Source: Burkholderiales bacterium (lineage in GTDB: Bacteria; Pseudomonadota; Gammaproteobacteria; Burkholderiales; Burkholderiaceae_C). From it: a DNA stretch of 35,705 nt. Position 1 is the first letter of the stretch. Each line of letters starts with the position of its first letter. A model generated the notes under the pieces. It made no database searches, was not told the origin of the DNA, and saw only the letters and a list, made by a program, of their open reading frames with translations. The stretch covers positions 1 through 35,705 of the forward strand of contig RXJV01000021.1 of NCBI GenBank assembly GCA_003963075.1, given 5' to 3'. The translations under genes were made by a program, and so were the position numbers. Shown piece after piece: positions 3,662-24,279 of this stretch.

Positions 3662-3682
3662 ATTGGGGAACTCCCTTAGAGT
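3654..3682 (+). promoter_or_regulatory. Candidate sigma-70 promoter of the efflux operon
   Basis: TTGCTT (3654-3659), a 17-base spacer and TAGAGT (3677-3682) give a fair sigma-70 match. The -35 hexamer lies inside the palindrome, so a bound repressor would block polymerase. The predicted transcript start falls almost at the ATG at 3691, and no Shine-Dalgarno sequence is visible, so the message may be leaderless or nearly so. Confidence 0.5.
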
Positions 3683-3690
3683 GCGCGCCC

Positions 3691-4329
3691 ATGGCTGTAC
3701 TCACCCCCTCCACCACCGGCTCGCTGGCGCCGCGCGAACGCCTGCTGGCGGTGGCTGCCCGGCTGTTCGGCGAGCGCGGCCTCGACCCCGTCACGACGCG
3801 CGAGATCTGCGCCGCCGCCGGCGTGAACCCCGGCGCCATCCATTACCACTTCGGTGACAAGGACGGCCTCTACCGCGAGGTGCTGCGCCTGCCGATCCAG
3901 GCCCCGAGCCAGGAGCTGCAGGGCTTCGATGCGCCCGAGCTGAGCCTGCACGAGGCGATCCGGCGCTTTCTGCAGCCCTTCCTGACCGACGACGACGCCT
4001 GCAGCGCCCAGCTCTTCCTGCGCGAGATGCAGGCGCCGAGCGCGATCTTTCTGGAGTCGGTCGCGCGGGACGTCGCGCCCATCTTCGAGCGCTTCGTCGG
4101 CCTGCTGGCCCGCCACGCCGGCATGGCCGAACCGACGCCGGCCCTCGTCCAGCTCGCGATGGGCCTGCAGGCCATGGCTCACGACTACGCGATGAGCCGG
4201 CCGCTGATGGACGCCTTCTACCCCGGCCTGCTGGCCGACGACCCGCGGCTGGAACAGACCGGCCGCCGCCTCGCGGACTGGGGCTGCGCCCTGGTCGAGT
4301 TCGAACGCCAACGCCACGCCAACCGATGA
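3691..4329 (+). CDS. TetR-family repressor of RND efflux operon
   Basis: Repressor of 212 residues. The helix-turn-helix is at about residues 12-58 (AARLFGERGLDPVTTREICAAAGVNPGAIHYHFGDKDGLY), a clear TetR_N domain. The C-terminal ligand domain (LFLREMQAPSAIFLESVARDVAPIFERF) resembles the CecR/DUF1956 type, an assignment I hold loosely. The frame is open further upstream, but the ATG at 3691 is chosen because the domain begins there and the palindrome and promoter lie just before it. Its last bases overlap the next start (ATGA at 4326), so it is co-transcribed with the pump and probably represses its own operon until a pump substrate binds. Confidence 0.92.
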   Translation: MAVLTPSTTGSLAPRERLLAVAARLFGERGLDPVTTREICAAAGVNPGAIHYHFGDKDGLYREVLRLPIQAPSQELQGFDAPELSLHEAIRRFLQPFLTDDDACSAQLFLREMQAPSAIFLESVARDVAPIFERFVGLLARHAGMAEPTPALVQLAMGLQAMAHDYAMSRPLMDAFYPGLLADDPRLEQTGRRLADWGCALVEFERQRHANR

Positions 4330-5831: not shown

Positions 5832-5834
5832 CCC

Positions 5835-6935: not shown

Positions 6936-6946
6936 GGAGGCGGGCC

Positions 6947-9900: not shown

Positions 9901-10060
9901 GATCGGCGGCCTGGTCACCTCGACCTTCCTGAGCCTGCTGGTGATCCCGGTGCTGTACGAGGTGGTGGACGACTGCATCCAGGGCCTCGGCGCTGGGCGG
10001 CGCGCGAAGACGCCGCCTGCCGCCGCGGCGCCGGGCCTGAAGGGAGAAGAGCCGGCGTGA
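6947..10060 (+). CDS. RND efflux transporter permease (HAE-1/AcrB family)
   Basis: Proton-driven inner-membrane drug-efflux pump of 1037 residues, normal for AcrB/MexB relatives. It has the N-terminal transmembrane helix, two large periplasmic loops (about 35-330 and 555-860) and two blocks of membrane helices. The proton-relay aspartates are in VIGVLVDDAIVEIEN (about 395-410) and the partner lysine is in GIATKNSILLVEY (about 915-930). A strong AGGAGG overlaps the adaptor stop codon and serves this ATG. The periplasmic loops and the DDAIVEIEN sequence favour organic substrates over heavy metals, but the substrate cannot be named. A short GC hairpin follows the gene. Confidence 0.95.
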   Translation: MFNVSRWSIANPVPAIMLFIMLTAAGLYGFQRMKIQQFPDIELPTIVVSASLPGAAPAQMETEVARKIENSVASAQGVKHVYTKVQDGLATVTVEYRLERPLQEALDDTRDAVARIRAELPADLRDPVITKMNLSGLPVLTYTVSSERMDDEALSWFVDNQVAKRLLAVRGVGSVARVGGVTREVRIELDPQRLLALGVTAAQVSRQLKQVQQEAPGGRAQLGGAEQSLRTIATVKSAEEVAALDIPLGDGRRVRLDQVASVRDTVAERRSGAFLNGKPVVGFEIVRARGAGEVDVAKRLKPALEELKAAHPDVTVTEAFNFVDPVIENYHGSMSLLLEGALLAVVVVWFFLRDWRATLVSAVALPLSAIPTFWVMEMMGFTLNVVTLLSLSLVIGVLVDDAIVEIENIMRHLNMGKTPLEAAREAADEIGLAVIATTFTLIAVFLPTAFMSGIVGKFFVQFGWTASIAVFFSLVVARLLTPMMAAYLLKPSTRPHTEPFWMPAYMKAARWAFTHKGKTLAITAAFSVAACTPLFMGKVPGAFLPPDDLSQSQINLELPPGSTYEETRAIAAQAHAVAAAHPHVKLVYTAVGGGNAGGDPFSMGGAPEARKATLTLNLTPRQERRGISKQQIEQELREQLQGIAGARIKVSLGGSNNKYQLVLAGEDGEALAAHAAKVEQELRRLPDIGQVISSSSLQRPELIVRPDAARAADLGVSTAAIAETLRIATAGDYDQLLPKLNLSQRQVPIVVRLPDAARADLALLGELTLPGARGPVPLRQVAELQLTSGPAEIDRYDRLRNINFEIELNGLPLSEVQAAAAALPSVANLPPGIRKAEIGDAEAFAELGQGFALAMGTGVACIYIVLVLLFHAWVQPVTILGALVLSVPGAILALFVTDTDLSMPAMIGMIMLMGIATKNSILLVEYALVAQREQGLSRLEALLDACHKRARPIIMTTLAMGAGMMPIALGFGTDPSFRAPMAIVVIGGLVTSTFLSLLVIPVLYEVVDDCIQGLGAGRRAKTPPAAAAPGLKGEEPA

Positions 10061-10107: not shown

Positions 10108-11001
10108 TCAGTTCTCCTTGTAGATCCGCACCCAGTCGACTTTCATCTGCGCCGGGAACACGGTGCTGGCATCCGGCGAACCGGGCCAGTCGCCGCCGAC
10201 CGCCAGGTTGAGGACGACGAAAAATGGCTTCTCGAACACCCAGCTGGTGCCGGCCGGCAGGTTGGCCGGTGCGAGGCGGTGGTACTCGACGCCGTCCACC
10301 TGCCAGATGATCTCGTTGGGCCGCTTGATGATGGTGTAGGTGTGGAACTCGCCGGACACCGGCTTGCCCAGATCCAGCGGCTTGCCGATGCCCTGGGCGC
10401 CCGAGTAGCCGGGGCCGTGCAGGGTGCCGTAGACGGTGTTGGGCGTCTTGCCCACGAATTCCATGATGTCGATCTCGCCAGCCTTGGGCCAGCCGGCCGA
10501 CGCGAGGTCGGTGCCGAGGGCCCAGAAGGCCGGCCAGATGCCGGCGCCCGCGGGCAGCTGCAGGCGCGCCTCGACCTTGCCGTAGGTGAAGCTGACCTTG
10601 CCATTGGTGTGGATGCGGGCCGAGGTGTAGGCACAGGGCGAACCGTTCCAGCAGGGGCCGGCATTGCTGGCCTTCTCGGCGGTGATGACGAGGTTGCCGT
10701 TGCCGTCGGTCTGGGCATTGCGGGCGTTGGCGGTGTAGTACTCCAGTTCATGGTTGCCCCAGCCGCCGGTCTCGGCATTGCCGAGGTCGTAGGTCCAGTT
10801 GGCGGGCTTGGGCACGGTGCCGGCGGCATCGTTGAACTCGTCGCTCCAGACCAGCGTCCAGGTGCTCGGCGGCGCGGGGCTGGGCGCGGGGCTGGGGGCC
10901 GCGGTCGCGGCACCGCCGCCGCCGCCGCAGGCGGTCAGCACGGCAGCGATGGCGGGCAGCAGATGGCGCCTGGGGCTGGGGGCAGGGGTGAGCTGGGGCA
11001 T
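10108..11001 (-). CDS. GH16 family glucanase lipoprotein (laminarinase-like)
   Basis: Secreted lipoprotein of 297 residues that likely cleaves internal beta-1,3 (or mixed-linkage) bonds of glucans. Lipobox LTAC places the lipid on Cys25. A Gly/Ala/Pro/Ser linker (to about residue 46) precedes a single GH16 domain (WTLVWSDEF to WVRIYKEN at the C-terminus). The catalytic GEIDIMEFVG motif supplies nucleophile E176, D178 and acid/base E181, the usual ExDxxE arrangement; GIWPAFWALG and YGTLHGPGY fit the laminarinase subfamily. The ATG at 11001 is preceded by GGAG at a good distance; an upstream in-frame ATG lies inside the GH1 gene. It follows the GH1 gene by 35 bases, probably in one operon. Exact linkage specificity is not proven by sequence. 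Confidence 0.92.
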   Translation of the reverse strand: MPQLTPAPSPRRHLLPAIAAVLTACGGGGGAATAAPSPAPSPAPPSTWTLVWSDEFNDAAGTVPKPANWTYDLGNAETGGWGNHELEYYTANARNAQTDGNGNLVITAEKASNAGPCWNGSPCAYTSARIHTNGKVSFTYGKVEARLQLPAGAGIWPAFWALGTDLASAGWPKAGEIDIMEFVGKTPNTVYGTLHGPGYSGAQGIGKPLDLGKPVSGEFHTYTIIKRPNEIIWQVDGVEYHRLAPANLPAGTSWVFEKPFFVVLNLAVGGDWPGSPDASTVFPAQMKVDWVRIYKEN

Positions 11002-11036
11002 GGGATGTCTCCGGTTGTTGTGGTTTGAAAGTTGGT

Positions 11037-12404
11037 TCAGCCGCGCCAGGCACGCAGGAAGGCGCGGTACCACTCGGCACTCGCCTTGGGTGTGCGCTGC
11101 AGGGTCTGGTAGTCGACATGGACGATGCCGAAGCGCTTGAGGTAGCCGCTCGCCCATTCAAAGTTGTCCATCAGGCTCCAGACCATGTAGCCGGCCACGG
11201 GCACGCCCTGCTGCAGGGCAGTGGCCAGTGCGGCGATGTGGCTGCGCAGATAGGCGGTGCGGTCGTCGTCCTGCACGCGGCCGTCGCGGACCGCGCTGTC
11301 CTTGAAGGCGCCGCCGTTCTCGGTTACGTAGATCGGCGGCAGGCCGGGGTAGTCGCGCTGCAGTTGCACGAGCAGGTCGGTCAAGCCCTGGGGATAGATC
11401 TCCCAGTCCATGTCGGTCACGGGCAGGTCACGGCCCTTGGCGTTCCAGTCCTCGCCGCTGGCGCTGACGACGCTGCGGGTGTAGTAGTTGATGCCGAGGT
11501 AGTCCATGGGCTGGGCGATGGCCGCGAGGTCACCCGGCTGCACCACGGGCGCGTCGGGCCCGAGCTCGGCCAGCACGCTCTCGGGGTAGTGGCCCTTGAA
11601 CAGGGGCTCGGTGTACCAGCGCCGGCTGCGGGCGTCGGCCCGATCGGCCGCCTCGATGTCTGCCGGCATGGCCGTGGCCGGCACCGTGGACGCGAGGTTG
11701 AGCACGATGCCGAGCTTGCTGCGGGCGCCGTCGGCCCGCAGTGCCTGCATCGCCAGCCCGTGCGACAGCAGCAGGTGGTGGGACACCTGGGCGGCGACCT
11801 TGCGGCTCTTGATGCCGGGCGCGAAATTGCCCTGCTCGTGGCCCAGCGTCGCGATGACCCAGGGCTCGTTGTGCGTGGTGATGCCGTCGAGCCGGTCGCC
11901 CAGCCGCGCCTGCACATGGCGGGCGTAGTCGACGAAGCGGTGCACCGTGTCGCGGTCGTTCCAGCCGCCGCGGTCCTGCAGGCCCTGCGGCAGGTCCCAG
12001 TGGTTGAGCGTGGCCCAGGCGTCGATGCCGCGTTGCCTGAGCCCGTCGACGAGGCGTTCGTAGAAGTCCAGGCCCTGTGGGTTGAAGGCGCCATGGCCCA
12101 GCGCCTGCACGCGCGGCCAGGCGATGGAGAAGCGGTAGCAGTTGACGCCCAGCGATGCGATCAGGTCCAGGTCTTCGTCCAGGCGGTGGAAATGGTCGCA
12201 GGCCAGGTCGGCGTTGCTGCCGTCGGCGATCGCACCGGGCTGCCTGCAGAAGCGGTCCCAGACCGACTCGCCCTTGCCGTCGGCGTGCGCGGCGCCCTCG
12301 ATCTGGAAGCTGCTGGTGGCCACGCCCCAGGTGAAGTGGCGCGGGAACTGGCGGTGCAGGGGAGGTAGAGGCATGAAGCGGGTGGTCATTGAAAGCGCTT
12401 TCAT
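11037..12404 (-). CDS. GH1 beta-glucosidase
   Basis: Family 1 glycosidase of 455 residues (from the ATG at 12404) that would release glucose from the oligosaccharides made by the GH16 enzyme. There is no signal peptide, so it acts in the cytoplasm. Motifs in order: FTWGVATSSFQIEGA near the N-terminus, TLNHWDLPQGLQDRGGW, acid/base E180 in THNEPW and nucleophile E362 in YVTENGG. The start is uncertain: the ATG at 12404 has GGAG four bases upstream and the operator TGAAAGCGCTTTCA would then cover codons 1-5, whereas an ATG at 12389 begins right after the operator but has no ribosome site. It is divergent from the lacI-family gene and followed by the GH16 gene. Confidence 0.93.
   Translation of the reverse strand: MKALSMTTRFMPLPPLHRQFPRHFTWGVATSSFQIEGAAHADGKGESVWDRFCRQPGAIADGSNADLACDHFHRLDEDLDLIASLGVNCYRFSIAWPRVQALGHGAFNPQGLDFYERLVDGLRQRGIDAWATLNHWDLPQGLQDRGGWNDRDTVHRFVDYARHVQARLGDRLDGITTHNEPWVIATLGHEQGNFAPGIKSRKVAAQVSHHLLLSHGLAMQALRADGARSKLGIVLNLASTVPATAMPADIEAADRADARSRRWYTEPLFKGHYPESVLAELGPDAPVVQPGDLAAIAQPMDYLGINYYTRSVVSASGEDWNAKGRDLPVTDMDWEIYPQGLTDLLVQLQRDYPGLPPIYVTENGGAFKDSAVRDGRVQDDDRTAYLRSHIAALATALQQGVPVAGYMVWSLMDNFEWASGYLKRFGIVHVDYQTLQRTPKASAEWYRAFLRAWRG
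12390..12403. promoter_or_regulatory. LacI-family operator at GH1 start
   Basis: TGAAAGCGCTTTCA, a perfect 14-base palindrome with the central CG expected of LacI/GalR/CcpA-type operators. It is identical to the site at 13877-13890 before the TonB receptor. It lies at or just before the GH1 start codon, so a bound repressor would block initiation or act as a roadblock. Confidence 0.85.
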
Positions 12405-12436
12405 GATTCTCCAGCAAGCCGCCGGATTCCTCAGCC

Positions 12437-12448
12437 GCACAAACCCTA
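12437..12448. promoter_or_regulatory. Shared 12-mer GCACAAACCCTA (copy 1)
   Basis: GCACAAACCCTA occurs here in the gap between the GH1 and lacI-family genes and again at 13794-13805 before the TonB receptor. It may be a second regulator's site or a promoter element. Nothing in the sequence identifies the protein involved. Confidence 0.35.
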
Positions 12449-12517
12449 GACGGGCTGCGATGCACGCTGCGCCGCCGGCGCCACCCCTACACTGAGCAGC
12501 CGACCCGCCCTTTGCCG

Positions 12518-13567
12518 ATGACCGCCAGAACCCAGCCTGCCAAGCGAGCGCTCTCGAACCGCCCCGAAGGCGTGGTCACGCTGGAACGGGTGGCCGAGCA
12601 GGCCGGCGTGTCGCCGAGCACCGTATCGCGCATCCTCAACGGCACTGCGGCGGTGAGCCAGGCCAAGAAGGACGCGGTGCAGGCCGCGATCCAGGCGCTG
12701 GGCTTCCGGCCCAACCCGGTGGCCCGCGGCCTGGCCGGCGGGCGCACCCTGTCCATCGGGGTGGTCACGCAGATCATCTCCAGCCCCTTCTATGGCGAGG
12801 CGCTGCTCGGCATCGAGCGCGAGCTGGAACGCGCCGGCTATGTGCCGCTGTTCGTGTCCGGCAACTGGCACGAGGACGATGAACGCAAGGCCATCGAGAC
12901 CCTGCTGTCACGCCGGGTGGACGGCGTCATCGTGCTGGCCGGGCGCCTGTCCGACGCGGAGCTGACCCAGGTCGCCGACACGCTGCCGATGATCGTCGTC
13001 GGCCGCCAGCTTTCGGGCCCGCAGCTCTACAGCTTCAGCTTCGACAACCGCGCCGGCGCCCGCGCGGCGACCCAGCATCTCATCGAGCAGGGCCACCGAC
13101 GCATCGCCTTCATCTCGGGCGACCTGCTGCACGACGATGCGGTCGAACGCCAGAACGGCTATTTCGATGCCCTGGCGGCGGCCGGCATCGCGGCCGACCC
13201 CGACCTCATCGTGCAGGGCGACTACACCGAGGCCGGCGGCATGCTGGCCGTCAGCCGGCTGCTGGAGCGCGACCAGCACTTCACCGCGCTGTTCGCGTCC
13301 AACGACCAGATGGCCATCGGCGCCTGCCTGGGGCTGCACCGCCGCAACCTGCGCGTGCCGGACGACGTTTCCCTGGTCGGCTTCGACGACCTGATCATGG
13401 CGCGCTATGCGATGCCGCCGCTGACCACCGTGCGCCAGTCGGTCTACGAGATCGGCGCCGAGGCCGCCACCGCGATGCTCAGCCTGCTGCGCGGCAACCG
13501 GCCGGAGGTGCAACTGCCGGCGCCGGCCCTGGTGGTGCGCGAGAGCACGCGGCGCATGCTGCGCTGA
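12518..13567 (+). CDS. LacI-family transcriptional regulator of the glucan locus
   Basis: Regulator of 349 residues. The helix-turn-helix and hinge (VTLERVAEQAGVSPSTVSRILNG to GFRPNPVARGLAGGRT, about residues 20-78) are followed by a periplasmic-binding-protein-like sugar domain (IGVVTQIISSPFYGEALLGIE, FISGDLLHDDAVERQNGY, FASNDQMAIGA, LVGFDDL). LacI proteins of this kind usually repress until a sugar binds. Three strong copies and one weaker copy of a matching palindrome flank the GH1 gene, this gene and the TonB receptor, making it the likely local regulator. The ATG at 12518 is chosen; a TTG two codons earlier is possible. The ribosome site is weak. Confidence 0.92.
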   Translation: MTARTQPAKRALSNRPEGVVTLERVAEQAGVSPSTVSRILNGTAAVSQAKKDAVQAAIQALGFRPNPVARGLAGGRTLSIGVVTQIISSPFYGEALLGIERELERAGYVPLFVSGNWHEDDERKAIETLLSRRVDGVIVLAGRLSDAELTQVADTLPMIVVGRQLSGPQLYSFSFDNRAGARAATQHLIEQGHRRIAFISGDLLHDDAVERQNGYFDALAAAGIAADPDLIVQGDYTEAGGMLAVSRLLERDQHFTALFASNDQMAIGACLGLHRRNLRVPDDVSLVGFDDLIMARYAMPPLTTVRQSVYEIGAEAATAMLSLLRGNRPEVQLPAPALVVRESTRRMLR

Positions 13568-13850: not shown

Positions 13851-13864
13851 TGAAAGCGCTTCCA
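13851..13864. promoter_or_regulatory. LacI-family operator 1 of the TonB receptor
   Basis: TGAAAGCGCTTCCA, one base away from the perfect palindrome TGAAAGCGCTTTCA. It overlaps the candidate -35 TTGAAA. Its centre is 26 bases from operator 2. Confidence 0.75.
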
Positions 13865-13876
13865 ATCACGTATTCT

Positions 13877-13890
13877 TGAAAGCGCTTTCA
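13877..13890. promoter_or_regulatory. LacI-family operator 2 of the TonB receptor
   Basis: TGAAAGCGCTTTCA, identical to the GH1 operator at 12390-12403. It sits just after the candidate -10 element, over the expected transcript start, 50 bases before the receptor ATG. Confidence 0.85.
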
Positions 13891-13939: not shown

Positions 13940-16939
13940 ATGAGACAGCCCCGTCCTGCCCTTCGCCTTACCCACCTGGCCGCGGCCAGCGGCCTGCTGT
14001 TCGCCGGCGCCACCGCCCAGGCGCAGCTGCCCAACCAGGGCCCCACGCCCGCCACTTCGGCGCCGCAGGCGCTGGCCGGCACGACGCAGCTGGAGACGGT
14101 CATCGTGACCGGCATCCGCCGGTCGCTGGAAACCTCGGTCAACCTGAAGCGCTCGTCGTCGGGCCTGGTGGACGGCATCGTCGCTGAGGACATCGGCAAG
14201 TTCCCCGACACCAACCTGGCCGAGTCGCTGAGCCGCATCTCCGGCGTGTCCATCGACCGCGCCAACGGCGAGGGCACCCGCGTCACCGTGCGCGGCATGG
14301 GCCCGGACTTCAACCTGGTGCTGCTCAACGGCCGCCAGATGCCCGGCGCCAGCATCGACGGCAGCGCGCCCAGCTCGCGCTCATTCGACTTCTCCAACCT
14401 CGCCGCCGACGGTGTCGCCGCGCTGGAGGTCTACAAGACCAGCCGTGCCAGCAGCCCGACCGGCGGCATGGGCGCCACCATCAACGTCCGCACCCAGCGC
14501 CCGCTCGACATCAAGGAAACCATCGCCCAGGTCGGCGTCAAGCTGGTCAGCGACGACTCGGCCCGCCGCCTGCCCGGCGAGGAGCAGGGCAAGCGGGTCA
14601 CGCCGGAACTCAGCGGCATCTACAGCACGCAGAACAGCGACGGCAGCTTCGGCATCGCGCTGATGGGCACCTACCAGGTCCGCGACTCCGGCTATTCCCA
14701 GGCCAACGTCAGCAGCGGCTGGAAGAGCTTCACCGGCAATATCGACAACCAGGACTGGGCCGGCGGCAATGCCGCCTGGGGTGGCCTGCCACCGGCTTCG
14801 GCGAACACGATCAAGAACCGCCCGGGCAAGGACGCCATCTACAGCGTGCCGCAGAACCTGAACTACTCGTTCACCGGCGTGCACCGCGAGCGCCTGAACG
14901 GCCAGCTCGTGATGCAGTTCAAGCCGACCAAGGACCTGGTGGGCACGCTGGACTTCGTGATGTCCGAGCAGAAGTTCCGCCAGCGCCGCAACGACATCTC
15001 GGCCTGGTTCAACTACGCCGGCCAGTTTGGCGAATACCAGACCGGCTCGCCCTCCTCGCCCATCATCTACGGCGAGACGATGACGAACTCGGACGTGGCG
15101 ATGAGCGCGTCCCGCATCCAGACCAAGAACAAGAACCAGCAGATCGGCCTGAACCTGAAATGGAAGGCGACCGACGCGCTGAGCTTCGACCTCGACGCCC
15201 ACCACTCCACCGCCACCTCGGGCGCCGATGACCCGCTGGGCACGGCCGTGACCCTGGGCACCGCGTCGCTGAACCGCGGCGACACCTCGGTGGACTTCAG
15301 CAACAAGTTCCCGGTGCTGATGATCAAGGGCGGCACCCTGAACCCGGCGCTGCAGGAACTGCAGGGTTCGGTGTTCGGCAACAGCTACCAGCGCAACGAA
15401 GTCAACCAGCTGCAGGCCAAGGGCAACTGGAAAATCAACAGCGACAGCAGCCTGGACTTCGGCCTGTCGCTGACCGAAGTGAAGAACCGGTCGGCCTTTG
15501 CCAACGTCCAGCGCGACTCCTGGGGCGCCAACAAAGCCGGCGGCCCCGCCGCGATGCCGAAGGACATCTGGCGCGCCGAGTCCATCAGCAAGTACTTCAG
15601 CCGCATCCCGGGCTCCAATGACCCGCGGCTGTTCAACCAGTTCTTCTATTTCAACTTCGAGGACCTGCGCGCGGCGGCCATCAAGGCGCTCGGTTCCGAC
15701 GCGCTGCTGAAGGCCTCGTTCGACTTCAAGGACGACTTCAACACCACCGAAAAGTCGCAGGCCCTGTTCGGCCAGTACAACCTCAGCTGGGACTGGGGCG
15801 TGCCGATGGACCTGTCCGCCGGTCTGCGCTACGAGCGCACCCAGGTGAACTCGCCCAGCGTCGAATCCGTGCCCTCCGCCGTCCGCTGGGTCTCGGCCAA
15901 CGAAATCCCCATCACCTTCAGTGGCACCACCAACGCCTCGCGTGACGGCAGCTATGGCTATGCCCTGCCCTCCATCGACTGGAGCGCCGACCTGACGCCC
16001 GACACCAAGCTGCGCGTCAGCTTCGGCAAGACCATCGGCCGGCCGGGCTGGAACGCCATCCAGGGCGGGCGCACGCTCGACGGCCTGGCGCGCATCGACG
16101 GCGGCAGCGGCAACGTCGGCAACCCCAACCTGAAGCCGCTGCAGTCGACCAACTTCGACCTCTCGGCCGAGCATTACTACGCCAAGAGCAGCTACATCGC
16201 GGCCAGCTACTTCACGAAGTCGATCAAGGACTACAACGAAGCGGTCATCACGCCCCAGACCATCCCGGGCCTGACCACCCCGATCGGCGGCGCCTACTAC
16301 CAAAAGGCGATCCAGGCCGGCGGCTGCAAGGCGAATGAATCGGGTTGCATCCGCGACTACATCTTCGCCAACTTCGCCGGCTCGCCCGGTGTGAACGCGG
16401 CGAGCCAGATCATCACCGGCCAGCCGACCGACCCGCTGCTGGTGTTCAAGATGGGCACCTTCCAGAACAACCAGCGCAAGAGCCGCCTCAACGGCATCGA
16501 GCTGAACGCGCAGCACATCTTCGGCAACACCGGCTTCGGCGTGTCGGCCAACTTCACCAAGGTGCGCTCCAACCTCAGCTACGACAACAACAAGGTCGGC
16601 GCGCAGACGGATGTGCTAGTGGGCCTGGGCAACTCGGGCAACCTGGTGGGCTTCTACGAGAACGACACCTACACCGCGCGGCTGGCCTACAACTGGCGCG
16701 GCCAGTTCCTGGCGGCCAACTTCGGCGGCACGGATGGCGCACAGCCGCTGTATGTCGAGCCCTATGGCCAGTTCGACCTGAGCCTGGGCTACAACTTCGA
16801 CAAGCGTCTGCGCCTGCAGTTCGAGGCCATCAACCTGACCGACGAGTACACGCGCACCCACCTTCGCAACGAGAACCAGATCGGCGCGGTGACCCAGCTC
16901 GGCCGCCGCATCATGATCGGGGCTCGGTACAAGTTCTAG
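13940..16939 (+). CDS. TonB-dependent receptor, Xanthomonas/Caulobacter type
   Basis: Outer-membrane, TonB-energised importer of 999 residues, probably for glucan oligosaccharides. The signal peptide ends near ATAQAQ (about residue 30), the TonB box is ETVIVTGIR (about 52-60), and the plug domain (about 65-180) carries DIGKFPDTNLAESLSRISGVSIDR and VTVRGMGPDFNLVLLNGRQ, typical of the TIGR01782-like class linked to glycan loci. The beta-barrel follows, with C-terminal strands FEAINLTDEY and IMIGARYKF ending in the expected terminal aromatic residue. AGGAG precedes the ATG by 8 bases. It is under two LacI-type operators and is followed by a terminator before the halogenase genes. Substrate is inferred from the GH16/GH1 neighbours. 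Confidence 0.94.
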   Translation: MRQPRPALRLTHLAAASGLLFAGATAQAQLPNQGPTPATSAPQALAGTTQLETVIVTGIRRSLETSVNLKRSSSGLVDGIVAEDIGKFPDTNLAESLSRISGVSIDRANGEGTRVTVRGMGPDFNLVLLNGRQMPGASIDGSAPSSRSFDFSNLAADGVAALEVYKTSRASSPTGGMGATINVRTQRPLDIKETIAQVGVKLVSDDSARRLPGEEQGKRVTPELSGIYSTQNSDGSFGIALMGTYQVRDSGYSQANVSSGWKSFTGNIDNQDWAGGNAAWGGLPPASANTIKNRPGKDAIYSVPQNLNYSFTGVHRERLNGQLVMQFKPTKDLVGTLDFVMSEQKFRQRRNDISAWFNYAGQFGEYQTGSPSSPIIYGETMTNSDVAMSASRIQTKNKNQQIGLNLKWKATDALSFDLDAHHSTATSGADDPLGTAVTLGTASLNRGDTSVDFSNKFPVLMIKGGTLNPALQELQGSVFGNSYQRNEVNQLQAKGNWKINSDSSLDFGLSLTEVKNRSAFANVQRDSWGANKAGGPAAMPKDIWRAESISKYFSRIPGSNDPRLFNQFFYFNFEDLRAAAIKALGSDALLKASFDFKDDFNTTEKSQALFGQYNLSWDWGVPMDLSAGLRYERTQVNSPSVESVPSAVRWVSANEIPITFSGTTNASRDGSYGYALPSIDWSADLTPDTKLRVSFGKTIGRPGWNAIQGGRTLDGLARIDGGSGNVGNPNLKPLQSTNFDLSAEHYYAKSSYIAASYFTKSIKDYNEAVITPQTIPGLTTPIGGAYYQKAIQAGGCKANESGCIRDYIFANFAGSPGVNAASQIITGQPTDPLLVFKMGTFQNNQRKSRLNGIELNAQHIFGNTGFGVSANFTKVRSNLSYDNNKVGAQTDVLVGLGNSGNLVGFYENDTYTARLAYNWRGQFLAANFGGTDGAQPLYVEPYGQFDLSLGYNFDKRLRLQFEAINLTDEYTRTHLRNENQIGAVTQLGRRIMIGARYKF

Positions 16940-16948
16940 GCCTCGAAA

Positions 16949-16976
16949 GCCTGCCGGCCGCCCCAGGCCGGCAGGC
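16949..16976 (+). terminator. Strong GC hairpin after the TonB receptor
   Basis: GCCTGCCGGCC (16949-16959) pairs perfectly with GGCCGGCAGGC (16966-16976) over an 11-bp stem with a 6-base loop, ten bases after the receptor stop. No T-run follows, so it may protect the receptor message 3' end or pause polymerase. Confidence 0.6.
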
Positions 16977-16999
16977 CCTGTGGCATAAAGCTCTGGTTC

Positions 17000-17026
17000 G
17001 GCGGCGCCAGCGGTGCGGGCGCCGCC
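17000..17026 (+). repeat. Second GC inverted repeat in the receptor-halogenase gap
   Basis: GGCGGCGCC (17000-17008) pairs with GGCGCCGCC (17018-17026), a 9-bp stem with a 9-base loop. It is followed directly by the palindrome TCGCCGATCGGCGA (17031-17044). Together with the hairpins on either side it makes this gap almost entirely foldable RNA. Confidence 0.5.
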
Positions 17027-17044
17027 TGGTTCGCCGATCGGCGA

Positions 17045-17066
17045 GGCCGCGCAAGCGGCCCTTTTT
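17045..17066 (+). terminator. Intrinsic terminator/attenuator before halogenase 1
   Basis: GGCCGC, a GCAA tetraloop and GCGGCC (17045-17060) are followed by CTTTTTGTT, a standard rho-independent terminator. It ends about 5 bases before the ribosome site of the halogenase gene, so halogenase expression would depend on readthrough or on a promoter overlapping this gap. Confidence 0.75.
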
Positions 17067-17081
17067 GTTCCAGGAGCCCGT

Positions 17082-18629
17082 GTGGACGACCGTATTCGCG
17101 ACGTGGTGGTGCTGGGCGGTGGCTCGGCAGGCTGGCTGGTGGCCGGCCTGCTCGCCGCCGAGCATGGCGACAGCCTGCGCATCACCCTGGTCGAATCGAC
17201 CGACGTGCCCACCATCGGTGTCGGCGAGGGCACCTGGCCGTCGATGCGCGACACGCTGCGCCGCATCGGCCTGTCCGAGCCCGAATTCATCCGCCGCTGC
17301 CAGGTCAGCTTCAAGCAGGGCTCGCGCTTCGACGGCTGGGCCCGCGGCGCGGCCGGCGACGCCGGCGACCGCTACTACCACCCCTTCATGCTGCCGGCCG
17401 GCTGGGGCGAGGCCGACCTGGTGCCCGCCTGGCTGGCCACCCAGCCCGACCGGCCTTTCGCCGATGTGGTCAGCCCGTCGGTGCAGGTCTGCGAAGCCGG
17501 CTGCGCGCCCAAGCAGGTGCAGACGCCCGCCTACGGCGCCGTCGCCAACTACGCCTACCACTTCGACGCCGGCCTGTTCGGCGAGATGCTGCGCGAGCAC
17601 GCCGTCCGGCAGCTCGGCGTGCGGCATGTCGTCGACCATGTCGACGCCGTCCTCAGCCACGACCACGGCGAGCGCGCCGGCGACCTCGCCGCGCTGCGCA
17701 CCCGCGCGCACGGCGACCTGGCGGCGGACCTGTTCATCGACTGCTCGGGCCTGCGCGCCCGGCTGATCGGCGAGCACTTCGGCGTGCCGCTGAAGAGCGA
17801 GCGCGAGGTGCTGTTCAACGACGCCGCGCTGGCCGTGCAGGTGCCCTATGCCCGGCCCGATGCGCCGCTGGCCACCTGCACCATCGCCACCGCCTGGGCC
17901 CAGGGCTGGTGCTGGGACATCGGCCTGCCGCACCGCCGCGGCGTCGGCTGCGTGTTCTCGCGCGCCCACGCCAGCGAGGACGAGGCCCAGGCCGCGCTGC
18001 AGGCCTACCTCGACGCCACCGGCGCCCCGGCCGAGCGGCCCACACCGCGCCTGATCCGCTACGACCCCGGCTACCGCCGGCAGTTCTGGGTGCGCAACTG
18101 CCTGGCCATCGGCCTGTCCAGCGGCTTCATCGAACCGCTGGAGGCCTCGGCCCTCGCGCTGGTGGAGCTGGCCGCGCAGCGCCTGTGCGACGAACTGCCG
18201 ATGACGCCCGCCAGCATGGCCGCCGTCGCGCGCCGCTACAACGACGACTTCGCCTACCGCTGGGCCCGCGTCATCGACTTCCTGAAGCTGCACTACGCAC
18301 TCACCCAGCGCGACGACAGCGCCTACTGGCGCGCCCACCGCGACCCCACCACCTGGCCCCAGCGCCTGCGCGAGCTGCTGCCGCAATGGCGGCTGCGCCC
18401 GCCGGCGCGGCACGACTTCGGCCGCATCGACGAGGTCTTCCCCGCCGCCAGCTACCAGTACGTGCTCTACGGCATGGGTTTCCGGCCAGACACCCAGCCC
18501 CTGCCCGACGCCAAGCTCGCCGCCGCCCGCGCCTGTTTCGACGACGCCGCGCGCCAGGCCCGCCGCTTCGTGCCTGGCCTGCCGGGCCACCGCGCCCTCA
18601 TCGATCACATCCAACGCGCCGCGTCATGA
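17082..18629 (+). CDS. Flavin-dependent tryptophan-halogenase-like protein 1
   Basis: FADH2-dependent halogenase-like protein of 515 residues. It has the FAD-binding GGGSAGW (12-18), the expected catalytic lysine K78 in VSFKQGSRFDGW, and a GFIEPLEAS segment at the position of the Trp-halogenase GFVEPLEST. The family signature WxWxIP is altered: residues 276-281 read WCWDIG, with Gly for Pro, so this belongs to a divergent subgroup. The GTG start at 17082 has AGGAG five bases upstream; the longer open frame has no ribosome site. It overlaps the SapC gene by four bases (ATGA). No flavin reductase is in the window. The natural substrate of such receptor-linked halogenases is unknown; free tryptophan is not assured. 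Confidence 0.88.
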   Translation: MDDRIRDVVVLGGGSAGWLVAGLLAAEHGDSLRITLVESTDVPTIGVGEGTWPSMRDTLRRIGLSEPEFIRRCQVSFKQGSRFDGWARGAAGDAGDRYYHPFMLPAGWGEADLVPAWLATQPDRPFADVVSPSVQVCEAGCAPKQVQTPAYGAVANYAYHFDAGLFGEMLREHAVRQLGVRHVVDHVDAVLSHDHGERAGDLAALRTRAHGDLAADLFIDCSGLRARLIGEHFGVPLKSEREVLFNDAALAVQVPYARPDAPLATCTIATAWAQGWCWDIGLPHRRGVGCVFSRAHASEDEAQAALQAYLDATGAPAERPTPRLIRYDPGYRRQFWVRNCLAIGLSSGFIEPLEASALALVELAAQRLCDELPMTPASMAAVARRYNDDFAYRWARVIDFLKLHYALTQRDDSAYWRAHRDPTTWPQRLRELLPQWRLRPPARHDFGRIDEVFPAASYQYVLYGMGFRPDTQPLPDAKLAAARACFDDAARQARRFVPGLPGHRALIDHIQRAAS

Positions 18630-19333
18630 ACCCCGCCCTGCTCGACAACATCACCCACCGCCACCTGCGCATCCACACCGAGCGCGCAGCCCAGCGCGGC
18701 GATGCCCGCCACTTCGCGCTGGCGCTGCCGGCGGAGTTCCGGCAGCTGCAGGCCCACTTCCCCATCGTCTTCCAGCTCGTGGACGGCGGCACCGGCTTCC
18801 AGCCCGTGGCGCTGTTCGGGCTGGAGGAGGGCCAGAACGTCTTCCTGACCGACACCGGCTGGGATGCGCCCGTCGTGCCCATGGCCCTGCAGCGCGACCC
18901 GTTCCTGATCGGCCGCGGCCCCGACGACAGCCTGCAGCTGCACATCGACCTCGACAGCCCGCGCATCGTCCGCGCGCACGAGGGCGAGGTCGGCACCGCC
19001 CTGTTCATGCCGCACGGCGGCTTCAGCGACTACCTCGACCATGTCGTGCAGCTGATGGAGCACCTGCATGCGCAGGCCCAGCAGCTGCCGGCCTTCATCG
19101 AGGCCCTCACCCGCCACCAGCTGCTCGAACCCTTCGCGATCGACATCGAAACGCCCGACGGAGAACAGCAGCGCCTGACCGGCCTGTTCACCATCCACGA
19201 GGAGCGCCTGGCCGCGCTGCCCGGCGCCGCCCTGGAGGCCCTGGCCCGCGACGGCCACCTGCTGCCGATCTACATGCAGATCGCGTCGCTCGCCCAACTG
19301 CCCGTCTTGCTCGAGCGTTCTCGCCGCCGCTGA
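18626..19333 (+). CDS. SapC-like protein
   Basis: Protein of 235 residues matching the SapC family (PF07277-type), recognisable by FALALPAEFRQLQAHFPIVFQ near residue 30, then the FPxxL/LDTGWD-like and QRDPFLIG segments, FMPHGGFSDYLDHVVQLMEHLHAQ and the C-terminal LLPIYMQIASLAQL. There is no signal peptide or membrane segment, so it is probably cytoplasmic. The name comes from Campylobacter surface-array loci, but the biochemical role is not established. Its ATG overlaps the halogenase 1 stop, and the cupin gene starts 5 bases after its stop. Recurrent association with TonB receptors and halogenases suggests it works with them. Confidence 0.88.
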   Translation: MNPALLDNITHRHLRIHTERAAQRGDARHFALALPAEFRQLQAHFPIVFQLVDGGTGFQPVALFGLEEGQNVFLTDTGWDAPVVPMALQRDPFLIGRGPDDSLQLHIDLDSPRIVRAHEGEVGTALFMPHGGFSDYLDHVVQLMEHLHAQAQQLPAFIEALTRHQLLEPFAIDIETPDGEQQRLTGLFTIHEERLAALPGAALEALARDGHLLPIYMQIASLAQLPVLLERSRRR

Positions 19334-19338
19334 CCTCC

Positions 19339-20346
19339 ATGCGCGCCATCCCCGACTGGACCGGCCCCTTCGACCCCAACCAGCTCCCCGCCGAGCTGCT
19401 GACGGCCGAGCGGCCCTATGTCGTGCGCGGGGGCTTCGCGCACTGGCCGGTGGTCCAGGCCGCGAACCAGTCCGACGAGGCCCTGGCCCGCTACCTGATG
19501 GGGTTCTACAACGGCGTGCGCATCGGCCTGTTCCAGCTCGCGCCCGAGGCGCGCGGGCGGGTGTTCTACGCCGACGACAGCCTCAGCAGCTTCAACTTCC
19601 ACCGCTACGCCGCCACGCTGGACCAGGTGCTCACCGGCCTGTTGGGCGTCGCCGGCACGCCCGAGCCGCCGGCGCTCTATGTCGGCTCCACCACCGTCGA
19701 GGCCGTGCTGCCCGGCTTTCTCGATGCCAACGGCCTGGGCCTCGGCGCGCGTGATGCCCTCGTCAGCCTGTGGCTGGGCAACCGCACCCGCATCGCCGCG
19801 CACTACGACCTGCCGGACAACCTCGCCATCGTCGCCGCCGGCCGGCGGCGCTTCACCGTCTTCCCGCCCGAGCAGCTGCCCAACCTCTACCTCGGCCCGC
19901 TGGACCCGACCCCCGCCGGCCAGCCGGTCAGCCTGGTGGATTTCCACCGGCCGGACTTCGAGCGCTTCCCGCGCTTCCGCGACGCGCTGGCGGCGGGCGA
20001 AGCGGCCGAGCTGGCGCCGGGCGATGCGGTCTACATCCCCAGCATGTGGTTCCACCATGTCGAGGGCCTGGCCCCGTTGAACCTGCTGATCAATGCCTGG
20101 TGGCGCCAGACCGCCGACCATGTCGACTCGCCGCTCAGCACCCTGCGCCTGGCCCTGATGACGCTGCGCGACCTGCCCGAAAAAGAAAAGCGCATCTGGC
20201 GGCACCACTTCCAGCACTTCGTCTTCGAGGCCAATGAAGACACCTGGGCCCATATCCCGCCCGCAGCCCGCGGCCTGCTCGGGCCGATTGACGAGACCTT
20301 GTCCCGCCAGGCCCGCACCCAACTCCTCAACCAACTGAAGCGATGA
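19339..20346 (+). CDS. Cupin_8/JmjC-like Fe(II)/2-oxoglutarate oxygenase homologue
   Basis: Protein of 335 residues with a cupin-like JmjC fold. Candidate iron ligands are H155 and D157 (AAHYDLPDN) and the distal histidine in WFHHVEGL (H239 or H240, most likely H240), separated by a strand-rich stretch containing FTVFPPEQLPNLYLGP, which is typical of cupin_8 proteins such as FIH-type hydroxylases. Known members hydroxylate proteins or peptides; whether this one is active is unknown. It lies between the SapC gene (5-base gap) and halogenase 2 (ATGA overlap), so it is translated with them. It has no export signal. Confidence 0.87.
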   Translation: MRAIPDWTGPFDPNQLPAELLTAERPYVVRGGFAHWPVVQAANQSDEALARYLMGFYNGVRIGLFQLAPEARGRVFYADDSLSSFNFHRYAATLDQVLTGLLGVAGTPEPPALYVGSTTVEAVLPGFLDANGLGLGARDALVSLWLGNRTRIAAHYDLPDNLAIVAAGRRRFTVFPPEQLPNLYLGPLDPTPAGQPVSLVDFHRPDFERFPRFRDALAAGEAAELAPGDAVYIPSMWFHHVEGLAPLNLLINAWWRQTADHVDSPLSTLRLALMTLRDLPEKEKRIWRHHFQHFVFEANEDTWAHIPPAARGLLGPIDETLSRQARTQLLNQLKR

Positions 20347-21893
20347 ACACCACCCAGCCTTTCAAGCGCGTCCTCATTGCCGGCGGCGGCACCGCCGGCT
20401 GGATGATGGCCGCGCTGATGAGCAAACTGCTCGGCAAGCAGCTCGACATCAAGCTCGTCGAGTCCGAGGAGATCGGCACCGTCGGCGTCGGCGAGGCCAC
20501 CATCCCGGCGCTGCACACCTTCCACAACCTGCTCGGCATCAACGAGGCCGAGTTCATGGCCGCCACCAACGCCACCTTCAAGCTCGGCATCAACTTCGAG
20601 GGCTGGAAGGACGTCGGCCAAAACTACTTCCACTCCTTCGGCACCACCGGCACCGACCACTGGAGCGCCGGCTTCCAGCACTTCTGGCTCAAGGGCCGCA
20701 CGCTGGGCCTGGCCAAGACCTACACCGACTACAACCCCGAGACGGTGGCCGCCTTTGCCAACCGCTTCGCCCACCTGCCGCGCAACGGCCTGAACTACGC
20801 CTACCACCTGGACGCCGGCCGCTACGCCAAATACCTGCGCGCGATGAGCGAGGCCTGCGGCGTGCAGCGCATCGAGGGCAAGATCGCCCGGGTGCTCAAG
20901 CATGGCCGCGAGGCCGGCGCCGCGCGCGAGGGCGACCTCGCCGCGCTGCAGATGCAAGACGGCAGCCGCCTGGAGGCTGACTTCTTCATCGACTGCACCG
21001 GCTTTCGCTCCCTGCTGCTGGGCGAGGCCCTGGGCGTGGGCTACGAGGACTGGTCCTACTGGCTGCCCTGCGACAGCGCCGTGGCCGTGCAGACGGCCTC
21101 CGTGCGCGAGGCCTGGCCTTACACCCGCTCCATTGCCCACCCCTTCGGCTGGCAGTGGCGCATCCCGCTGCAGCACCGCGTGGGCAACGGCCTGGTCTAC
21201 AGCAGCAAGGAGCTCAGCGACGCCGACGCCCCCGAGATGCTCAAGCGAAACGTCGAAGGCGAGCTGCTGACCCAGCCGCGCATCATCAAGTTCCTGCCCG
21301 GCCAGCGCGACAAGGTCTGGGCCCGCAACTGCGTGGCCGTCGGCCTGGCCAGCGGCTTCGTCGAGCCGCTGGAGTCCACCAGCATCCACCTCATCCAGCG
21401 CGCGGCCATCCGGCTGATGCAGCTCTTCCCGGCCGGCGGCATCCAGCAGGGCGATGTGGACGAGTTCAACCTGCAGTCCAAGCGCGAGCTGGAGCACATC
21501 CGCGACTTCATCGTCTTGCACTACCACGTCAACGCCCGCATCGACTCGGCGCTCTGGAAGCATGTGCGCGAGATGGACATCCTGCCCTCGCTGCGCCACC
21601 GCATCGAGCTGTTCCGCGAGGCCGGCCGCGTGTTCCGCCCCAGCGACGAGCTCTTTGCCGAGAACTCCTGGGTGCAGGTCATGATGGGCCAGGGCATCAC
21701 GCCCGAGCGCTACCACCCCGTGGCCGACCTGATGGGCCGCCAGGAGCTGGGCAACTTCCTCGGCGACATCCACCTCAAGGTGGCGCGCACCGTGGCCGGC
21801 CTGCCCGGCCACCAGGCCTATGTCGAGCAGCTCTGCGCGCCCTACCGCAGCGCCACCACGGCCCAGCTCGCCGCCACGCCGCTGCGGGCTTGA
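20343..21893 (+). CDS. Flavin-dependent tryptophan-halogenase-like protein 2
   Basis: Halogenase-like protein of 516 residues, paralogous to but clearly distinct from the first. FAD-binding GGGTAGW is at 14-20, the expected catalytic lysine is K80 in ATFKLGINFEGW, the signature WQWRIP is intact near residue 270, and GFVEPLESTSIHLI keeps the Glu-Ser pair of classical Trp halogenases. All hallmarks for FADH2-driven hypohalous acid chemistry are thus present. It is the last gene of the coupled set; a T-tailed terminator lies about 150 bases downstream. The reductase partner would have to be supplied from elsewhere in the genome. The substrate is unknown. Confidence 0.9.
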   Translation: MNTTQPFKRVLIAGGGTAGWMMAALMSKLLGKQLDIKLVESEEIGTVGVGEATIPALHTFHNLLGINEAEFMAATNATFKLGINFEGWKDVGQNYFHSFGTTGTDHWSAGFQHFWLKGRTLGLAKTYTDYNPETVAAFANRFAHLPRNGLNYAYHLDAGRYAKYLRAMSEACGVQRIEGKIARVLKHGREAGAAREGDLAALQMQDGSRLEADFFIDCTGFRSLLLGEALGVGYEDWSYWLPCDSAVAVQTASVREAWPYTRSIAHPFGWQWRIPLQHRVGNGLVYSSKELSDADAPEMLKRNVEGELLTQPRIIKFLPGQRDKVWARNCVAVGLASGFVEPLESTSIHLIQRAAIRLMQLFPAGGIQQGDVDEFNLQSKRELEHIRDFIVLHYHVNARIDSALWKHVREMDILPSLRHRIELFREAGRVFRPSDELFAENSWVQVMMGQGITPERYHPVADLMGRQELGNFLGDIHLKVARTVAGLPGHQAYVEQLCAPYRSATTAQLAATPLRA

Positions 21894-22205: not shown

Positions 22206-22219
22206 CCCTGTGATTCCAC

Positions 22220-22239
22220 GGGGCTGGCAAGCCAACCCC
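22220..22239 (+). repeat. Small hairpin near the EF-G2 ribosome site
   Basis: GGGG-c-TGGC pairs with GCCA-a-CCCC around a 2-base AA loop (likely opening to a larger loop). It ends about 6 bases before AGGA, so it could influence ribosome access. Confidence 0.35.
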
Positions 22240-22254
22240 GAATCAGGAATCACC

Positions 22255-24279
22255 ATGAACTCGAACACCACCTTCCGCAACCTGCGCAACATCGGCGTCA
22301 TTGCCCACGTCGACGCCGGCAAGACCACCACCACCGAACGCATCCTGTTCTACACGGGCGAGAACCACCGCATTGGCGAAGTCCACGACGGCGCCACGAC
22401 GATGGACTTCGACCCCCAGGAGCGCGCGCGCGGCATCACCATCCACAGCGCGGCCACCACCGTGCACTGGCGCGGCACGCAAGTGAATCTGATCGACACG
22501 CCCGGACACATCGACTTCAACGTCGAGGTGCGCCGCTCCCTGCGCGTGCTCGACGGGGCCGTCGTCGTCTTCGACGGCGTGGCCGGCGTCGAGCCCCAGA
22601 CCGAGACCAACTGGCGCCTCGCGGACGACTACCGCGTGCCCCGCATCGCCTTCGTCAACAAGCTGGACCGCACGGGTGCGGACTTCCAGCGCGTCGTCTC
22701 GATGATGCAGGAGCGCCTGGGTGCGCGCGCGCTGCCGCTGCAGCTGCCCATCGGCGCCGAGGGCGAGTTCCGTGGCGTCGTGGACCTGCTCACCCTGCGC
22801 GCCCTCGTCTGGGACCGCGACGACGCCTCCGCGCCCCCGCGCGTGGCCGACATTCCGCCCGAGCTGCTCACCGCCGCCCAGGACGCCCGCGCACGCCTGG
22901 TGGAAGCCATCGTCGAGCGCGACGACGCGCTGCTCGACGCCTGGCTGCGCGGCGAACAGCCGTCGGTCGACGCGCTGCGCGCCGGCCTGCGCGCCGCCAC
23001 CGTCGCGGGCGAGCTCGCGCCCGTGCTCGCCGGCTCGGCCTTCCGCAACCGCGGCGTCGAGCCGCTGCTGGACGCCGTCGTCGACTACGTCCCGCGCCCC
23101 GGCGAAGCCCCCGGCGCGGTGGGCACGCACGCCCCGCGTGACGGCCTCTCCGCCCTTGCCTTCAAGCTCACCGCCGACGACCACGGCACGATGGTGTTCG
23201 TGCGCGTCTATGCCGGCACGCTCAAGCGCGGCGACACGGTCTGGAACGCCAGCACCGGCCAGGCCGAGCGCGTCTCGCGGCTGTACGAGATCCACGCCGA
23301 CCGCCGCGTCGAGCGCGAAAGCCTCGCTGCGGGCGACATCGCCGGCCTCGTCGGCCTGAAGGACGTGCTCACCGGCCACACCCTAGCCGCCCACAAGGGC
23401 GCGCCCGTGCTGGAAAGCATTGCCGTGCCCGAGGCCGTCATCGACGTCGCCATCGAGCCCCGCAGCCAGGACGGCGCCGCCGCACTCGCCAAGGGCCTGG
23501 GCGTGCTCGTGCGCGAAGACCCGTCGTTGCGCCTGCGCCAGGACGCCGACTCCGGCCAGACCCTGCTCTCCGGCATGGGCGAGCTGCAGCTCGAAGTGGC
23601 GGTGGAAAAGCTGCGCTCACGCTTCGGCGTGGACGTGGCCGTGGGCCGGCCCCAGGTGGCCTACCGCGAGACCATCACCGCCCCGGCCGAGCTGCGCCAT
23701 GTGCACAAGAAGCAAAGCGGCGGCCCCGGCCAGTTCGCCGAGCTGACGCTGCGCCTCGCGCCGCTGCCGCGGGGCGAGGGCCTGCGCTTTGCCAGCACCG
23801 TGGTGGGCGGCGCCATCCCGCGCGAGTTCATCCCGGCGGTGGAGGCCGGCATCCGCCGCGCCGCCCAGGCCGGCCCGCTGGCCGGCCACCCGCTGGTGGA
23901 CTTCGAGGCCACGCTCGTGGACGGCAGCGCCCACGTGCGCGACTCCTCGGCCCTGGCCTTCGAGCTGGCCGCCGCCACCGCGCTGCGCGAGGCCGCGCTG
24001 AAGGCCGCGCCCGTGGTGCTGGAGCCGGTGATGGCCGTGGAGGTCATCACCCCGGCGGAAAGCCTGGGCGACGTCATCGGCGACCTGCTGCGCCGCCGCG
24101 GCCAGGTGCAGGGCCAGGACGCGCGCGGCAACGCGGTCGTCGTCACGGCCCATGTGCCGCTGGAGCGCATGTTTGGCTACATCGGCCAGCTGCGCGCCCT
24201 CAGCTCGGGCCGCGCGCAGTTCACGATGCAGCTGAGCCACTACGCCGAGGTACCGGCGCGGGTGGCTATGGCGGCATGA
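22255..24279 (+). CDS. fusA2: Elongation factor G, second-type paralogue
   Basis: Ribosomal translocase GTPase of 674 residues, slightly shorter than the roughly 700 of housekeeping EF-G. GTPase motifs: G1 AHVDAGKT (17-24), RGIT (59-62), DTPGH (81-85) and NKLD (135-138); domain II starts near ALAFKLTADDHGTMVFVRVY, domain IV has HVHKKQSGGPGQF and the C-terminal domain ends MFGYIGQLRALSSGRAQFTM. The ATG at 22255 follows AGGA by 7 bases. It is not next to rpsL, rpsG or tuf, as the housekeeping gene is, so it is probably a specialised copy (recycling, stress or antibiotic tolerance). A degenerate copy of its 3' end lies at 25437-25705. The symbol is a label of convenience. Confidence 0.88.
   Translation: MNSNTTFRNLRNIGVIAHVDAGKTTTTERILFYTGENHRIGEVHDGATTMDFDPQERARGITIHSAATTVHWRGTQVNLIDTPGHIDFNVEVRRSLRVLDGAVVVFDGVAGVEPQTETNWRLADDYRVPRIAFVNKLDRTGADFQRVVSMMQERLGARALPLQLPIGAEGEFRGVVDLLTLRALVWDRDDASAPPRVADIPPELLTAAQDARARLVEAIVERDDALLDAWLRGEQPSVDALRAGLRAATVAGELAPVLAGSAFRNRGVEPLLDAVVDYVPRPGEAPGAVGTHAPRDGLSALAFKLTADDHGTMVFVRVYAGTLKRGDTVWNASTGQAERVSRLYEIHADRRVERESLAAGDIAGLVGLKDVLTGHTLAAHKGAPVLESIAVPEAVIDVAIEPRSQDGAAALAKGLGVLVREDPSLRLRQDADSGQTLLSGMGELQLEVAVEKLRSRFGVDVAVGRPQVAYRETITAPAELRHVHKKQSGGPGQFAELTLRLAPLPRGEGLRFASTVVGGAIPREFIPAVEAGIRRAAQAGPLAGHPLVDFEATLVDGSAHVRDSSALAFELAAATALREAALKAAPVVLEPVMAVEVITPAESLGDVIGDLLRRRGQVQGQDARGNAVVVTAHVPLERMFGYIGQLRALSSGRAQFTMQLSHYAEVPARVAMAA

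Follow-up and report, generated by a model that had tools for sequence, protein, structure and literature searches.

The window analysed here is a stretch of 35,705 nucleotides from a Burkholderiales bacterium (contig RXJV01000021.1 of assembly GCA_003963075.1). Behind a LacI-type regulator gene and putative operator palindromes it carries five genes, all on the plus strand, for a TonB receptor, a halogenase-like protein (hal1), a SapC protein, a cupin_8 protein and a second halogenase-like protein (hal2). The exact five-gene order was detected in 54 other loci and is not chance. We propose, with a probability of roughly 0.45, that the set is a widespread cytoplasmic cassette, the client of which would be the precursor of the receptor.

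The receptor gene (13940..16939, 999 amino acids) belongs to the TIGR01782 type (601.5 bits, cut-off 310). It is followed by hal1 (17082..18629), a 2PYX-type member of PF04820 (387 bits), and by SapC (18626..19333; PF07277, 208.6 bits, cut-off 28.9). Cupin_8 (19339..20346; PF13621, 213 bits) is a putative FIH-like hydroxylase of the Fe(II)/2-oxoglutarate type, and hal2 (20343..21893; PF04820, 602 bits) a putative halogenase of the Xcc4156/BrvH type. The stop/start spacings are -4 for hal1/SapC (18629/18626), +5 for SapC/cupin_8 (19333/19339) and -4 for cupin_8/hal2 (20346/20343). Profile matches and coordinates thus bear out the gene families and spacings given in a first-pass annotation of this DNA. 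Its hal1 gene is present as well, with a start that is most likely not at 17013, where the listed open reading frame (ORF) begins. The start is rather the GTG at 17082 behind AGGAG at 17072-17076, which leaves a gap of 142 nucleotides to the receptor gene. No export signals were seen in the coupled proteins, judged by eye without a predictor.

The distribution of the set was investigated with two samples. For named genomes, 14 module cupin_8 proteins were used as queries and the best 80 of at least 580 relatives were kept; close relatives are over-represented in these 80 loci because they are the best matches to the query. The five-gene order was found in 48 of them, and seven had the set without hal1. 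Six loci were receptor-cupin pairs, four contained receptor, SapC and cupin, two contained receptor, cupin and halogenase, and six were otherwise arranged. The other seven showed the order halogenase, SapC, cupin and halogenase, with no receptor in the sequence stretch covered. Six further five-gene loci were found among 100 SapC-centred loci, a non-random choice from the matches listed. Co-occurrence with TonB receptors, for which the first-pass annotation had proposed a survey, is seen well outside the window. The organisms of the 54 loci are placed by name, and presumably belong to the Alpha-, Beta- and Gammaproteobacteria. Among the best 80, the closest named relatives of cupin_8 came from Pelomonas and other Burkholderiales. 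For comparison, 55 five-gene loci (48 named, six further and the window) and 14 four-gene loci without hal1 were combined to 69 modules. Natural fusions among the four families were not found in the ORFs searched.

Two further loci were observed in the genome of the window itself. One (L015, contig C164) is a four-gene sister module of receptor, SapC, cupin_8 and hal2 without hal1, with identities of 46, 51, 54 and 62% to the respective members of the set. In the other (L017, contig C77), the genes of a receptor and of a halogenase 36% identical to hal1 share a strand; a tandem pair of cupin_8 genes is convergent with them, and another receptor is also present.

The receptor was the constant partner of these enzymes. 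In a survey of nine genomes, eight of them chosen for carrying the module (G048 and G295 were searched for receptors and left out), 43 of 47 PF04820 genes had a TIGR01782 receptor gene no more than 6 kb away; about 2.4 were expected. The receptor was upstream on the same strand within this distance for 42 of the 47. Same-strand chains behind receptors were tallied in loci found via SapC, cupin or halogenase, and their frequencies are not those of nature. Halogenase, SapC and cupin occurred together in 72 chains, halogenase with SapC in 11, cupin with SapC in four and cupin with halogenase in three. Nine chains had a halogenase only, six a cupin only and ten none of the partners; SapC alone was found in 0. 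Two of the nine halogenase-only loci have partners convergent on the other strand, SapC in L122 and the two cupins in L017. As the parts are separable, and the steps of a pathway would need to stay together, enzymes acting on the receptor are favoured over a metabolic pathway. A TonB receptor was also found directly upstream of the set in 10 of 10 annotated plasmid regions of Proteobacteria (from three of 27 SapC records and seven of 64 halogenase records, not a random sample).

The neighbouring glycan enzymes differed between the loci. GH16 and GH1 genes are present here; elsewhere alpha-amylase, pullulanase, GH97, GH20, GH43, GH95, GH3, galactosidases and agarase were found, corresponding to beta-glucan-, starch-, chitin-, xylan- and agar-type loci. 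Because both these enzymes and the mixtures of modifying enzymes vary, the receptor is regarded as the constant partner and the cargo as variable. The pairing of enzymes and receptor suggested by the first-pass annotation is strengthened by this, as it holds irrespective of the glycan and as single-enzyme forms exist. Co-inheritance was observed as well. In a tree of 146 receptors all 69 module receptors were placed in one clade, together with four otherwise linked receptors and one unlinked. In a finer tree of 90 receptors, with some weakly supported nodes, both halogenases appear to have been lost on about six independent occasions, with further losses of hal1. The neighbours of halogenase-linked receptors were scanned in 21 loci (65 of 89 ORFs, with the top 25 families listed). 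Three of the 65 ORFs matched sulfotransferase families (PF13469); sulfation of tyrosine would be a related kind of modification.

The halogenase signatures of hal2 are well conserved. GGGxAGW, the lysine and EP[LI]E were found in all 69 module sequences and WxWxIP in 66 of them, and the copy in the window has all four. Hal2 was aligned end to end with Xcc4156 (668 bits) with no large insertion. It is in the Xcc4156/BrvH class and, as far as sequence can tell, a predicted flavin-dependent halogenase. It shares GxGxxG, lysine and WxWxIP with Xcc4156 and BrvH (PDB 6Y1W, 6FRL) and like them has no long loops of the tryptophan halogenase type. At the position occupied by Asn in Xcc4156 and Ser in BrvH, the 69 sequences have Ser (58), Asn (6), Thr (4) or Gly (1). 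In Xcc4156 the substrate-binding loops are short compared with those of tryptophan halogenases, the pocket is open, and free tryptophan is not accepted; a peptide or larger substrate was suggested in the passages available from that paper (PMC7336383). No natural substrate of this class is established in the available parts of the papers on both enzymes (PMC5945002, PMC7336383).

The signature of hal1 is different. Instead of WxWxIP, WxWDIG was found in 54 of 55 sequences and WIWDIA in one, and EPLEAS replaces EPLEST in 54 of 55. All 55 sequences retain the Lys and Glu to which catalysis is ascribed. Thus, the two FADH2 halogenases of the first-pass annotation are secure for hal2 only, since hal1 fails the WxWxIP signature. 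WxWDI[GA] and EPLEA are shared with the structures 2PYX, which we take to be from Shewanella, 9LTB and 9LU2; for 9LTB or 9LU2 no paper was found in the open-licence literature. Hal1 forms a separate class and would not be called a halogenase without an assay.

The cupin_8 protein has the metal triad HxD...H (H155, D157 and H239 in the window), which was found in 69 of 69 module sequences and also in 40 of 40 of another sequence set. Its model (pLDDT 94.2) matched FIH with an E-value of 8.7e-21 and a TM-score of 0.61 in Foldseek. All 50 PDB matches listed were FIH, JMJD5, JMJD7 or TYW5; their TM-scores, normalised by query length, were modest (0.53-0.65). These four are hydroxylases of proteins or transfer RNA (tRNA). 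Accordingly modelled, cupin_8 is a predicted FIH-like 2-oxoglutarate hydroxylase with a JmjC/FIH fold. It shares triad and fold with FIH and JMJD5/JMJD7. It differs in being bacterial and receptor-linked, whereas FIH is human and was solved in complexes with HIF, Notch or ankyrin-type peptides. The relatives of cupin_8, together with Xcc4156 as relative of hal2, agree with the macromolecular substrate that the first-pass annotation proposed.

SapC is known for a role in the S-layer of Campylobacter. Its model was confident (pLDDT 95.5), and no fold relative with an E-value of at most 0.001 was found in PDB or among viral models, nor any relative by sequence profile. The fold may thus be new, as a confident model stands without a PDB match. 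DUF6445 was tried as a relative and found no support (hhalign probability 0.1, E-value 0.59). Genes of this family are located between receptor and halogenase on one plasmid (L357:5309-6004) and behind a halogenase in L161 (13062-13769), and may represent another interchangeable component of the set.

A restriction of SapC to the module was rejected. Of 397 genomes sampled from the phylum, 139 carried SapC, mostly outside the module setting. Among the 100 SapC-centred loci, 18 had a TIGR01782-like receptor and a halogenase above 300 bits, four had such a halogenase without the receptor and 76 had neither. For the SapC genes outside modules, 59 of 67 upstream neighbours were scanned (omitting short neighbours and a halogenase at the edge of a contig, and with four giant ORFs cut to about 1,000 amino acids), and 62 of 71 downstream neighbours. 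The 59 upstream neighbours included TBDT (5), ShlB (4), RTX (3), Omp85 (3) and PpiC (6). FAD-linked oxidases (FAD_binding_4 with FAD-oxidase_C) made up 17 of the 59 and are a recurring pair. In six loci (L083, L090, L093, L099, L110 and L117) SapC is located beside ORFs of about 2,900 amino acids that reach the end of the locus and may encode giant secreted proteins; in L083 a HlyD-type gene is present on the other side of SapC.

The regulator gene (12512..13567, plus strand; PF00356/PF13377) encodes a LacI-family protein. Upstream of the receptor gene a LacI-type near-palindrome TGAAAGCGCTTCCA (13851..13864) and a palindrome TGAAAGCGCTTTCA (13877..13890) are located, both putative operators; TGAAAGCGCTTTCA occurs again before the GH1 gene (12390..12403). 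Three CG-centred palindromes of this type were found in the window, with 0.33 expected, and upstream of the receptor they were present in 51 of 69 module loci compared with 0 of 69 interior controls. LacI control, as claimed in the first-pass annotation, is supported by these palindromes; binding of the regulator is predicted from the DNA sequence. Its description of the region as a beta-glucan locus is in line with the adjacent minus-strand genes preceding lacI, a GH1 beta-glucosidase-type enzyme (11037..12440) and a GH16 beta-glucanase-type enzyme (10108..11157; PF00722). The PF00232 match of the former begins at residue 29 of the listed ORF, and its true start is probably below 12390.

An 11-bp hairpin without T-run (16949..16976, plus strand) follows directly behind the receptor gene. 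Between receptor and hal1 a terminator-like stem GGCCGCGCAAGCGGCC with subsequent CTTTTTG (17045..17060, plus strand) was detected, and the gap folds strongly (z -3.9). Terminator-like sites in the scanned region amounted to six with 4.8 expected, an unremarkable total that is weak alone. A stem of at least 8 bp within 120 nucleotides after the receptor stop was found in 59 of 69 module loci compared with 5.7 in shuffles; after the hal1 stop such stems occurred in 4 of 55. The comparison between loci says more than the single scan: of the 55 five-gene loci, 31 have a terminator-like site behind the receptor, as do 4 of the 14 four-gene loci, and none of the interior controls has one (0/69 over all modules, 0/55 for five-gene loci). 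We read the feature as the 3' end of the receptor gene, tolerated by the enzyme genes, so that much receptor and little enzyme would be made.

For the client, the chemistry, the role of SapC and the benefit we propose the following. A glycan would induce the operon via the LacI-type regulator. The receptor would be made in bulk, and the hairpin or terminator would let less transcript reach the enzyme genes. Hal2, cupin_8 and optionally hal1 would modify the receptor precursor while it is still unfolded and awaits export by Sec; the cytoplasm is assumed as the site because FADH2, Fe(II) and 2-oxoglutarate are available there. An aromatic side chain would be halogenated by hal2, perhaps with bromine, and cupin_8 would introduce a hydroxyl group, each enzyme acting independently of the others. 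SapC may serve as a helper that unites enzyme and client. The glycan-binding or plug surface of the receptor could be tuned in this way.

Several results weigh against this proposal. In the nine genomes, 4 of 47 halogenases had no TIGR01782 receptor within 6 kb, and 62 of 92 such receptors had no halogenase within this distance (30 were linked). The gene distances in the five-gene set are correlated (r 0.79-0.91), which is explicable by shared ancestry alone. Stems of at least 8 bp were also found after SapC (16/69), cupin_8 (24/69) and hal2 (26/69), compared with 59/69 for the receptor. A terminator-like site was present in 21 of 46 unlinked receptors as well as in 19 of 28 linked ones of the nine genomes. 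Because unlinked receptors often have such sites, the hairpin could be nothing more than the 3' end of the receptor gene itself.

Further counter-evidence comes from the receptor sequences. Columns conserved in at least 93% of 75 halogenase-linked receptors were compared with the six inferred lineages of halogenase loss, where loss stands for the absence of a halogenase from the locus retrieved; another copy in these genomes could act in trans. No conserved aromatic residue was lost in more than two of the about six lineages. W261 is Y in a Duganella group without halogenase, but also in L230, which keeps hal2. In the loss lineages conserved aromatic columns deviated in 12 of 132 cases and other conserved columns in 26 of 840 (p 0.003), a weak sign in favour of the proposal; the sister lineages, which served as matched control, gave 6 of 132 and 36 of 840 (p 0.82). 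Two divergent lineages, L239 and L245, carry nine of these 12 deviations. Twelve contrasts of linked and unlinked receptors, with 15 residue classes tried, gave no convincing W, Y or H column. The best W/Y column, near receptor position 641, reached 5 of 12 contrasts, as did 4 of 100 label swaps, and for S 5 of 12 were reached by 5 of 100. The content of W and Y was not raised in linked receptors (higher in 5 of 12 contrasts). A single conserved target residue was therefore not accepted, as neither the conserved-column nor the 12-contrast test gave a clean candidate. The modification system of the first-pass annotation is partly supported, as a conserved receptor-bound set; no fixed aromatic column of the receptor cleanly separates linked from unlinked ones. 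If a modification site exists, it may be in variable loops, be receptor-specific, or have been freed from constraint too recently to drift.

Other explanations have to be considered. Classic PF04820 enzymes make small molecules, and the set could make or alter one as well (an indole, a phenolic or a siderophore-like compound), which would be imported by the receptor system or serve as signal or weapon around it. In available passages Xcc4156 and BrvH, the solved relatives of hal2, act on free indole in vitro (PMC5945002, PMC7336383). We nevertheless consider this explanation rather unlikely: no biosynthetic cluster was seen in the neighbour scan described above or in the ten plasmid regions, the parts occur singly, the cargo enzymes vary by locus, and the fold of cupin_8 is of the FIH type.

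Still lower is the probability of another exported client, such as a glycoside hydrolase, a part of TonB/ExbBD or a small peptide. The chemistry of the enzymes would be identical, and SapC outside the module often adjoins genes for outer-membrane, secretion or foldase proteins; in minimal pairs, however, the receptor is the constant neighbour, and the glycoside hydrolases vary. It is similarly improbable that the halogenase-like proteins, and hal1 in particular, serve not as halogenases but as flavin monooxygenases or as redox partners with an action like that of QhpG and LodB, which are oxygenases of Trp residues. The WxWDIG/EPLEAS signature in place of WxWxIP/EPLEST would fit such a role, as would the weak matches of hal1 to the NCBIfam equivalogs of QhpG (36.3 bits, cut-off 240) and LodB (23.2 bits, cut-off 400). 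Both are below the cut-off, though, and the conserved Lys and Glu of hal1 and the WxWxIP of hal2 argue against it.

The single families are known. No description of the receptor-bound set was found in the open-licence literature searched, and there is a real chance that the set stands for receptor modification of a new kind. The first-pass annotation regarded the receptor linkage of such halogenases as known. This was not confirmed by the halogenase papers in the portions available: "receptor" is absent from PMC5945002, TonB, SapC and cupin from PMC8269204, and TonB, SapC, receptor and cupin from PMC7336383. Xcc4156 and BrvH are described as isolated enzymes, with no SapC or receptor in the passages on them. 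The available sections of PMC11337851 and PMC11340318 contain nothing on the receptor-enzyme set, the title of PMC3377617 does not concern it, and the main text of PMC2996990 gave no match for its search terms. The lanthipeptide tryptophan halogenase MibH is likewise a flavin halogenase acting on a Trp-bearing peptide (excerpts of PMC8269204, PMC7336383), but Xcc4156-type enzymes do not cluster with it (excerpt of PMC7336383). The CUT loci for TonB-dependent glycan uptake in Xanthomonas and Caulobacter likewise have a regulator, a TIGR01782-type receptor and glycoside hydrolases; no halogenase, SapC or cupin is mentioned in the main text of PMC1790865.

Two neighbouring regions of the window were also noted. 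A gene for an EF-G-type GTPase (22210-24279) is located directly downstream of the module. An efflux pump operon (3397-10060) comprises, consecutively, a TetR/CecR-type regulator, an outer-membrane factor, a HlyD-type adaptor and an RND permease.

In general, the set may represent a modular modification system, in which many glycan TonB receptors have their own halogenase, FIH-like hydroxylase and SapC and are halogenated and hydroxylated as precursors in the cytoplasm. We hold this wider form more tentatively than the proposal for the set itself. To our knowledge, it would be the first case in which an outer-membrane protein of bacteria is halogenated by an enzyme. There are already organisms whose receptor is accompanied by a halogenase alone, a cupin alone, both or neither, and modification of the receptor is thus directly testable. 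If true, it would provide a physiological substrate for the orphan Xcc4156/BrvH and 2PYX classes and a role for SapC.

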